A DNA stretch of 64,000 bases from Tetradesmus obliquus. Its lineage: Eukaryota; Chlorophyta; Chlorophyceae; Sphaeropleales; Scenedesmaceae. The stretch lies in contig CP126194.1 in assembly GCA_030272155.1 (NCBI GenBank), positions 372,001-436,000 of the forward strand, in the 5' to 3' direction. A program made the position numbers and the translations under genes. The notes beneath the pieces are model-generated. The model saw only the letters and a list, made by a program, of their open reading frames with translations. It was not told where the DNA came from and did no database searches. Of this stretch, positions 28,840 through 46,173 are shown piece after piece (the first letter of the stretch is position 1; each line of letters begins with the position of its first letter).

Positions 28840-31800
28840 ATGGCGCACCCGCATGCGCTGCAGCAGCATGGTGCTGCAGGCCCGGCAGCTGCAGCAGCAG
28901 CCGCTGTGGATGCCACCACACTGGTCTTCACCAAAGACCCTTTCAAGCCGCCAGAGGTGCCGCGCAAGATGTGAGCGTGTCTCTGCGCAGCTGTTACAGA
29001 TGTTTGAAAGATGTAACAGCCGCAGCAGCAGAGCAGCGGCAGCCGTGCCCGAATGGCAGCACGGAAACATGCATGGCTGCAAGTGATGGCTGCATACTCT
29101 TGCAGACACAAGTCTGAGCAGTAGCCGCTGCAGTAAGCTTGCCGCAGCAGCTGCCACCGCATGCATGCATCATGCATGGCTAGCCCGTCTTGGGCAGCTG
29201 GTAAGGTCCCAGCACTGCCAACAGCACTGCAGCTCCTGCCACAATTCATCGTCCTCTGGTGTGCTGCCTACGTCCATGCTAGCCTGTTTCCCATGTCTGC
29301 CCTTCACCTGCTCTAACATCTTCTTGCCGTTCCTGCAAACCCCACATGCGCAAACATGCGTGCTGCAGCCAGCAGATCCGCTTTGGGCTGCAGAGCCCGC
29401 AGGACATCATCAACTGCGGCGTGTTCCACGTGTATGAGCGCGCACTGTACAAGGTGAACCCCTGGTGCCAGCAGCAGCAGCAGCAGCCTTGTAGGTTGAT
29501 GGTTGGTTGTGGCTTGGCAGGCCATGGCTGGGTTGCTGTTTGGGTGTGCTGGGAGCAGTGGGCGCTTGCAGCTGGCAGCTGCAAGGCATGCTGCGTGCTG
29601 GGTCGAGCCGGCAGTCTGCCTTCGTTGTGCACATGCCTTCCAGCAGTAGCAGTGCCTTGCATGTGCCGCCCGCATCAGTTGGCACCAGCAGACAAAGCAG
29701 CACACAACTGCCGCAGCATGAGGCAGCCTGTCAGGCAGCAGCGCAAGCCTCGGCCGTCCGCACTCGCCTGTGTGTACGGCTGCTGGCTCTAACTACTGCT
29801 TTTGCGTCTGATGCTGCCGCTTGCTCTGCTGTAGATGCCGGAGCGCATGCCGCACCCCAACGGCGTGCTCGACCAGCGGCTGGTGAGCAGCAGCAGCCGC
29901 AGCGGAGGCAGCAGCAGAGGCGGGTGCAGCAACCGCTTGCAGGACAGCAGCCGTGACGGCGGTGCAGGGCAGCAGCCGGCACTCAGTTCCGCAGCAGGGC
30001 GCTGCGCTGCAGCTGGCACAGGCGCCGTAGCGGCTCAATCGGCATTTGCTGTGCTGGGTCCTGCAGGAGGGCAGCCATGCACTCCACAGCAGCAGCAGCA
30101 GCTGCTGCTTCACAACACTTGCAGGGCAGCAACCCAACTGCAGCAGTGCGGCATACTTCAGTCTGCAGCCTGCAGCGTGCACAGCAGTCATTGCCGCATA
30201 AACGCCAGCCAGAAAGCAGCTCCCGAAACGCCACCCATGGACTTTGACCTCTCGTACCTCTCCGTACCCCTCGCTCACTATTATTGCTGCTACCGCTGCT
30301 GCTACCGCCCGCAGGGTGTGTCCAGCAAGGTGGCTGTGTGCCGCACCTGCGGGCTCAAGCTGGCCGACTGCGCGGGCCACTTTGGCTACCTGCGCCTGGA
30401 GCTGCCTGTGTTCCACGTGGGCTACTTCCGCAACACGGTGCAGCTGCTGCAGTGCATCTGCAAGACCTGCAGCAGGGTGCTGCTGCCGGAGGAGGAGCGG
30501 CGGCGCTGGATCAAGTGAGGGGCGGGGGGAGGTTGAATTGATGCAGCAGATGGGGCAGCACAGCAGCGCAGCAGCGCAGCAGCACAGCCTGTGTGTGGCG
30601 CAAGCCAGCAGCGCATTGGACAATGGAGTAGCTGGGCCTCAGCAGTGCGGCTACTGGGGCAGGCTGTGGGGCAAGTTACAGCAGTACAGCATGCAGGCTG
30701 GGATGCGGCAGCCGCGGATCATTTGCAGCTGCTGTATGCGCCGTACAGCCACATGCAGGCCAACCTGTCCTGTGATGTGGCCCGTGCGTGTGTGTGGATG
30801 CCGCACTCATTACACCCACGCACTGCGGCAATTGTTGTCCCTTTAGTAATCCACACCTGCTGTGCGTTGCACTAGCACCCTCACCGATTTGTGTCTCTGC
30901 ACTAGTCCCTGCTGCTGCAGGCACTTCCTCAACCCCTGCTGTGGTTTTGTTTCATCAGCAAACGCCCTGTAGTGGTAGTAGATAGGCGCCTGATGCAGCA
31001 GCAACCTTTGGCTCTCTGCTCTGCTCAGCGCCGCTGTGTGCCTGGCTGCCGCTTGTCCCGCCCTGCTGCAGGCGCTTCCGCAACCCCAAGCTGGAGCGCG
31101 TGCCGCGCGAGCAGCAGTTCAGGCGCGTGATCGACATCTGCAAGCGAGCCAAGCTCTGCCACCACTGCGGCGCCTACAACGGCACAGTCAAGTGAGGCGC
31201 ACAGCGGCTGGGGCTGCTGCGGGCTGCTGCAGTGCATGGGGTTTTAGCTTTTTGGATGACTAGTTGCCGACGGTGCCTGCTGCAGCTGTACCTGAATGTT
31301 CCTGCGTGCCATCTGCTTCCCCACATTTGTTCTGCCCTGCCGTCCGACAACACCCATACGTGCATGCTGATCATCTCACCCCGACCCACCGCATCACCTC
31401 CCCCACCTCTTCCACCACCACCCCACCCACCTGCTGCCTCGCAGGAAGCCCAGCGGCAGCCTCCATATCTGCTGCAGCTGCGCCCTGCCTGCCAGTGCCT
31501 GTTGCTGCTGCTATGTGCTGTCGCTTCATGCATCTGTTCTGCGCCGTATGCTACAAGTGTGCACAGCTGTTTCCAGCCCATCGTGCTGCGTTGCTGTCCA
31601 CCTGATCTTGGCCTTAACTCGTGCCATCCTGGCATCGCTTGCCCCACATCACCGTCCTGACATCGCTTTCCCTACATCACTCATCCTGGCATCGCTTGCC
31701 CCACCCCACCCACCTGCTGCCTTGCAGGAAGGCCAGCGGCAGCCTCAAGATCTTGCACGAGGCCTACGCCAAGAACGCAGACGCGCGCCAGCGCCTGGCT

Positions 31801-46173: not shown

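Follow-up and report, generated by a model that had tools for sequence, protein, structure and literature searches.

Copies of exon edges in the introns of RPC1 and other genes of Tetradesmus obliquus form local tandem arrays

The window, by which we mean the whole 64,000-nucleotide stretch of DNA analyzed, spans positions 372001-436000 of contig 4 in the Tetradesmus obliquus genome (104.66 Mb, 17 contigs). It contains the gene for the largest subunit of RNA polymerase III (RPC1), for which a model of 29 exons and 28 introns was built by hand and matched to protein (Table 1). All 28 introns are of the GT-AG type, and the model encodes 1510 amino acids with a single, terminal stop. The product is 99% identical to the annotated T. 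obliquus protein P0001, the two differing by 8 substitutions and, close to the C-terminus, by a single length difference of 5 residues. No length difference falls at any of the 28 junctions, and because P0001 matches the model at all of them the intron borders are sound. P0001, as annotated, uses none of the intronic exon-edge copies (hereafter echoes) that are described below. Within intron 9, a GTGT/GTGC microsatellite of approximately 119 bp (window positions 33580-33704) starts right at the donor, so that the 5' splice site belongs to the repeat. Elsewhere in the window, two predicted genes on opposite strands (2824-11130, plus strand, and 18045-26669, minus strand) have a long identical protein segment in common, suggesting a recent inverted duplication or conversion.

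The first-pass annotation of this DNA had claimed that at least 16 RPC1 introns carry copies of neighboring exon ends. After simple repeats had been masked, the 56 exon edges that face an intron (up to 80 nt each) were compared one by one with their own introns, with 400 shuffles per edge as the control. Seventeen edges beat all 400 shuffles. They lie in 16 of the 28 introns (5, 6, 7, 9, 11, 16-23, 25, 26 on both sides, and 27), which are exactly those claimed, and the RPC1 echoes are real. For 15 of the 17 edges the best echo extends to the junction without a gap; the remaining two stop 7 nt (side 20A) and 8 nt (side 27D) short of it, sides being named by intron number and by acceptor (A) or donor (D). 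When secondary copies are included there are 25 echoes, one to three per edge, at offsets of 79-558 bp. A weak acceptor echo in intron 4, with 23/25 bases identical across the junction, fell short in the comparison with shuffled sequence (p = 0.125), and a search of 1 kb yielded no echo of the RPC1 start or stop codon. Echo-bearing introns had a mean length of 543 bp (n = 16) vs. 343 bp for introns without echoes (n = 12; one-sided Mann-Whitney test, p = 0.0025), which is consistent with the earlier suggestion that echoes could drive intron growth.

Table 1. The RPC1 gene and the echoes in its introns (window coordinates; offsets in bp; identity given as identical exon bases)
Feature	Position	Strand	Evidence	Offset	Identity	Remark
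RPC1 (RNA polymerase III largest subunit), 29 exons/28 introns	28840..46173	+	hand-built model; protein match			
Acceptor echo, exon 6, intron 5	31445..31470	+	shuffle-tested	283	23/26	
Donor echo, exon 6, intron 6	31950..31974	+	alignment	118	23/25	
Donor echo, exon 6, intron 6	32050..32122	+	shuffle-tested	266	66/73	
Acceptor echo, exon 8, intron 7	32988..33009	+	shuffle-tested	113	21/22	
Donor echo, exon 9, intron 9	33890..33906	+	alignment	327	17/17	
Donor echo, exon 9, intron 9	33970..33984	+	alignment	405	15/15	
Donor echo, exon 9, intron 9	34077..34099	+	shuffle-tested	520	22/23	
Acceptor echo, exon 12, intron 11	35313..35339	+	shuffle-tested	113	26/27	
Donor echo, exon 16, intron 16	37527..37556	+	alignment, tandem repeat finder	127	26/30	
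Donor echo, exon 16, intron 16	37634..37663	+	shuffle-tested	234	27/30	
Acceptor echo, exon 18, intron 17	38211..38247	+	shuffle-tested	114	33/37	
Donor echo, exon 18, intron 18	38632..38659	+	shuffle-tested	109	26/28	
Acceptor echo, exon 20, intron 19	39266..39295	+	shuffle-tested	139	30/30	
Acceptor echo, exon 21, intron 20	39831..39859	+	shuffle-tested	96	26/29	begins 7 nt into exon
Acceptor echo, exon 22, intron 21	40392..40424	+	shuffle-tested	94	32/33	
Donor echo, exon 22, intron 22	40881..40914	+	shuffle-tested	276	33/34	
Acceptor echo, exon 24, intron 23	41847..41871	+	shuffle-tested	89	22/25	
Donor echo, exon 25, intron 25	42623..42652	+	shuffle-tested	79	29/30	
Donor echo, exon 25, intron 25	42759..42785	+	alignment	212	26/27	
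Donor echo, exon 26, intron 26	43151..43169	+	shuffle-tested	101	19/19	
Acceptor echo, exon 27, intron 26	43545..43575	+	alignment	388	30/31	
Acceptor echo, exon 27, intron 26	43739..43769	+	shuffle-tested	194	31/31	whole 238-bp stretch 95% identical
Donor echo, exon 27, intron 27	44379..44433	+	shuffle-tested	262	54/55	copy without last exon bases
Donor echo, exon 27, intron 27	44499..44530	+	alignment	350	29/32	
Donor echo, exon 27, intron 27	44707..44738	+	alignment	558	27/32	

The intron sequence next to the exon copies was compared between copies. In 11 of the 17 RPC1 sides (5A, 6D, 7A, 11A, 16D, 17A, 21A, 22D, 25D, 26A, and 27D) at least one comparison between copies gave intron homology beyond every one of the 300 shuffles; for 19A and 26D it reached p = 0.007, and for 23A p = 0.067. 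At sides 9D, 18D, and 20A no such homology was detected against 300 shuffles, and another copying route may have operated there. Where intron segments are homologous between copies, the unit is an exon stretch plus an intron stretch, repeated head to tail, and because this unit spans the exon border the exon copy necessarily stops at the splice site. Echo copies run on into the intron of their own junction and thus do not have the structure of retrocopies or other mRNA-derived insertions. The earlier description of the echoes as local tandem duplications that carry intron with them is therefore upheld by the homology at these 11 sides.

Exon-edge copies are approximately 92-94% identical and, except in recent sub-duplications, the intron parts are usually far more diverged. 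Intron parts of adjacent copies gave mean matches of 0.645 vs. 0.563 for unrelated intron pieces, and z was above 2 in 26 of 84 comparisons, figures that understate intron homology because the arrays have higher-order structure. In several arrays the intron homology was visible by eye and had been hidden by repeat masking. One chaperonin array (C14) is discordant: the intron parts of copies 1 and 2 are 0.91 alike vs. 0.87 for their exon parts, and copies 3 and 4 have the exon part in common (0.98) but not the intron part (0.51). Copies within an array thus look recombined; flags at C16 1501 in the analysis of copy discordance and heterogeneity arise artefactually from a single inserted base in copy 2. 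The range of identities had been read as a sign of a continuing process. The range itself is there, but the copies form no simple age ladder (rank means 0.921, 0.921, and 0.936), and outside RPC1 the differences are coding-like.

Beyond the window, four blocks of 50 kb were sampled, and genes in them were predicted with a small gene finder trained on RPC1; a self-trained version had drifted and merged genes, and was dropped. The RPC1-trained version recovered all 29 RPC1 exons and also called some echoes as exons. In 14 other predicted genes 30 of 156 edges had echoes, distributed very unevenly between genes. A Clp protease gene had echoes at 6/11 edges, a glutamate-cysteine ligase gene at 4/9, and a NOC1-like gene at 15/27, where the gene finder took some of the echoes for exons. 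On contig 2 (1.00-1.03 Mb), a prediction with 25 exons, possibly representing several genes, had them at 0/44 edges. As an independent set we used chaperonin exons supported by the Cpn60/TCP-1 HMM. Echoes were present at 38 of 69 chaperonin edges, exactly at the junction in 34 of the 38. Among these 38, there are 13 that overlap a further predicted exon. One chaperonin "exon" (C15, 2198-2329) is probably an echo itself, which affects the edge count and leaves the codon comparison symmetric. The chaperonin genes, too, differ from each other, with echoes at 7/7 edges on contig 16 and 10/14 on contig 12, and none at the 6 edges on contig 2 or the 6 edges on contig 8 (loci L023, L038, L027, L046, and L048). 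The pattern therefore extends beyond RPC1 to the chaperonins and to other predicted genes. A codon-bias proxy for expression did not separate genes with echoes from genes without.

At the glutamate-cysteine ligase locus (contig 5, 1.00-1.05 Mb, L017-L021 joined, block positions 5410-5589), the end of the coding sequence is repeated together with its stop codon 115 bp downstream, at 92% identity. This array crosses the stop into the 3' flank, and a coding/noncoding border is thus enough; splicing is not required. In three further families, HMM matches were screened for neighbors within 1 kb that overlap by at least 15 model positions. Such pairs numbered 3 in 52 light-harvesting matches (none nested), 7 in 39 matches to class I tRNA synthetases (six nested), and 3 in 32 MCM matches (one nested); as a sign of echoes in these families they are a lead only.

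Self-comparison of 264 kb revealed 67 arrays of head-to-tail copies with a roughly regular period of 60-700 (median 130). They are unevenly spread: the window contains 14, and the four 50-kb blocks contain 15, 2, 6, and 30. At window positions 21611-21836, where no exon is predicted, lies a tandem duplication of 121-123 bp whose copies are 79-81% identical and whose unit size is that of the exon-edge arrays. The shortest period was 100-160 bp in 43 of the 67 arrays, and periods near exons and away from them were alike (median 130 in both, KS p = 0.76).

The first-pass annotation had further described the copies as always lying across a splice junction. When exon sequence was allowed, 35 of the 45 arrays in gene spans touched a confident exon (permutation mean 23.9; none of 2000 permutations as high). 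When exons were masked the excess inside gene spans disappeared (11 of 29 arrays, mean 12.8, p = 0.83), and targeting of junctions thus found no support. Over whole blocks a marginal excess was seen with exons masked (14 of 49 arrays vs. 9.0 expected, p = 0.049), the junction test being weaker outside RPC1, where gene models are incomplete. Since noncoding DNA alone gives no concentration at exons inside genes, the junction preference at least partly reflects preservation. Our conclusion is that the process of duplication has no specificity for exon edges, which mainly preserve its record. One result points the other way: in RPC1, none of the 12 introns without an echo has a repeat that exceeds the 0.999 null quantile, and the majority of intron repeats sit in echo introns.

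An echo that decays neutrally beside a constrained exon is expected to show replacement changes at approximately half the synonymous rate or more. RPC1 echoes differed from their exons by 24 synonymous and 24 replacement changes over 761 sites (22 and 20 in another count). The replacement/synonymous ratio was 0.35 (p = 0.28 against the two-lineage expectation), and the RPC1 codon pattern is compatible with plain neutral decay. The 63 chaperonin echoes carried 229 synonymous and 95 replacement changes; the p-value for all echoes is too small because echoes of one exon share the changes of that exon, and with one echo per edge (35 edges) the counts were 115 and 54. The codon counts leave out one chaperonin exon that lacks an open frame (C14 4553-4753). 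Chaperonin divergence was 3.8% at 0-fold and 21.3% at 4-fold sites, a ratio of 0.18, whereas neutral echoes planted and run through the same pipeline gave 0.55. Genes on contigs 1 and 5 (49 echo pairs) showed 4.9% and 25.2%, respectively.

Base type does not explain this pattern, since C and G sites changed at approximately 4-5% in codon positions 1 and 2 and at 12-18% in position 3. These rates, and the list of individual echoes that follows, count 27 masked bases as changes, which the 63- and 35-echo counts exclude. Fourteen of 47 echoes with at least three changes had no replacement, vs. 1.0 expected; 14 of the 63 chaperonin echoes had at least three synonymous changes and no replacement, and in another 14 replacements outnumbered synonymous changes. 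The spread among chaperonin echoes lay beyond all 5000 simulated sets, and the echoes are thus heterogeneous. Changes private to single echoes again favored synonymous sites on a per-site basis (N/S 0.24; 30 and 22 changes). This count covers 40 echoes from 15 arrays, each array without its most diverged echo. Gene conversion or role-swapping within one lineage was rejected as a cause, as simulated N/S never fell below 0.46 (40 settings with 3 replicates each, in both directions).

Several explanations have to be weighed against these data. Tandem duplication in one lineage followed by neutral decay of the echo, with the junction link and the exon identity due solely to purifying selection on the exon, agrees with the RPC1 codon pattern, with the lack of junction excess within gene spans under matched detection, and with the homologous intron parts at 11 of 17 RPC1 sides. 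It does not agree with the low chaperonin ratio when compared to planted neutral echoes, with the same synonymous excess in the contig 1 and 5 genes, or with the simulations that included gene conversion. For the chaperonins this account is already refuted, unless the silent sites of exons change at several times the rate of neutral DNA, and overall we consider it rather unlikely. Coding-type divergence could also arise if the echoes were functional coding sequence now, for example alternative exon ends kept by protein-level selection, and GT or AG is intact in 82 of 86 echoes. Their inner ends, however, have no splice sites (AG at 2/51, GT at 1/35), so that the acceptor and donor of a cassette or alternative exon are not found together, and nearly all echoes contain just part of an exon. 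The 63 chaperonin echoes hold 6 indels and 2 stops, the RPC1 echoes 1 stop; gaps in echoes are short. Replacement changes showed no tendency to be conservative when set against random changes (BLOSUM62 mean -0.57 vs. -0.42, p = 0.70). With stops, indels, and unconservative changes the echoes do not appear to be coding now, and present function is a quite improbable explanation.

Copying directed to junctions, linked to splicing or to RNA, would write exon edges into introns, and would fit the position of the best echoes at the exact junction (15 of 17 in RPC1, 34 of 38 in chaperonins), the several HSPs that end a few bases from a splice site, and the three RPC1 sides without inter-copy intron homology. 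But tandem geometry alone forces contact with the junction, no excess is left inside gene spans once exons are masked, the glutamate-cysteine ligase array crosses a stop codon, and intron homology seen by eye in several arrays had been concealed by repeat masking; we regard such copying as highly doubtful. Tandem arrays are also prone to assembly error, and the copies were seen here in a single assembly. An artefact of tandem or haplotype sequence is nevertheless very improbable indeed, since substitutions between the copies follow codon structure, and the copies occur across many genes and several contigs, have similar periods, and have kept their splice sites.

The explanation we prefer, and to which as a whole we give an even chance, is that exon edges carry tandem arrays whose units diverged while coding and decayed later. 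The anatomy of the arrays suggests that local duplication or unequal exchange would copy a unit in which part of an exon is joined to part of its adjoining intron. Splicing would then stay with the copy contiguous to the exon body, in agreement with the P0001 annotation, and the gene would remain functional; extra copies would accordingly turn into intron, and the intron would lengthen. Exon-edge copies stay recognizable and mostly keep their GT or AG, as seen here, and intron parts diverge more. Up to this point the scheme is very probably correct. The synonymous excess of the chaperonin and contig 1 and 5 genes, which RPC1 does not share, goes beyond what neutral decay in a single lineage would be expected to leave, and suggests that both exon and echo were still coding when they diverged, and that a shorter neutral decay of the echo followed. 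As the one-lineage simulations fail, a second constrained lineage would most simply come from another haplotype. Separate haplotypes whose arrays swap units by recombination are thus the most likely candidate, although we hold their chance to be somewhat below even. Excerpts of PMC7955037 call a relative, Scenedesmus sp. NREL 46B-D3, likely diploid, with alleles separated. Against haplotypes as the source, the silent divergence needed is high (approximately 0.15), and RPC1 and P0001 differ at only 8 of 1505 residues; against the scheme in general, RPC1 itself matches neutral decay, z exceeds 2 in only 26 of the 84 intron comparisons, and 3 of the 17 RPC1 sides show no inter-copy intron homology.

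Tandem duplication across exon borders has been described before. In the potato RdRp gene an intron was gained in this manner (excerpts of PMC4974935), and as in the alga the duplication spans the intron-exon border and takes splice signals along. The potato case, as given there, concerns one gene and one event that made a new intron and exon, whereas in the alga duplication extends introns that are already there, at numerous edges of a gene and with up to five or more copies. The same excerpts discuss the Rogers model, where duplication of an AGGT-containing exon segment creates an intron; tandem duplication with duplicated splice signals is common to both, but here no new intron position appears to be made, and the RPC1 echo unit includes a pre-existing splice site along with intron sequence. 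In human segmental duplications, intron structure is also altered by variable internal tandem repeats at exon-intron boundaries, according to excerpts of PMC2812944, in which 27 intron modifications were found as copy-number differences between recent primate paralogs. The algal arrays, in contrast, are old and diverged, and mark 30-55% of RPC1 and chaperonin edges in single-copy conserved genes. Introners, which according to excerpts of PMC9860276 have been found chiefly in fast-evolving lineages, green algae among them, likewise change intron content rapidly. They are similar introns copied over many genes, whereas echoes are local copies of the adjoining exon edge, and a 300-bp query from one RPC1 array had a single genome match, namely itself. 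Among the matches listed in searches of open-access full texts, a body that leaves most subscription journals outside, we recognized no report of such a genome-wide pattern or density. Boundary-straddling tandem duplication is thus known as isolated events, and our searches listed no precedent for the density seen here.

These arrays have practical consequences for gene prediction, as the predictions made additional exons of some RPC1 echoes, and one predicted protein contained duplicated segments. With 17 of 56 RPC1 edges and 38 of 69 chaperonin edges marked, and with longer introns where echoes occur, they offer a direct view of intron growth. The codon pattern between exon and echo provides a sharp test of decay in one lineage vs. 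exchange between functional haplotypes. More speculatively, and with considerable doubt on our part, exon edges might be interchangeable array units that circulate between haplotypes, each unit having once been a working edge on some chromosome. If this were true, introns would store exon ends that were functional until recently, and the visible structure of a gene would be a snapshot of an array in continual recombination.
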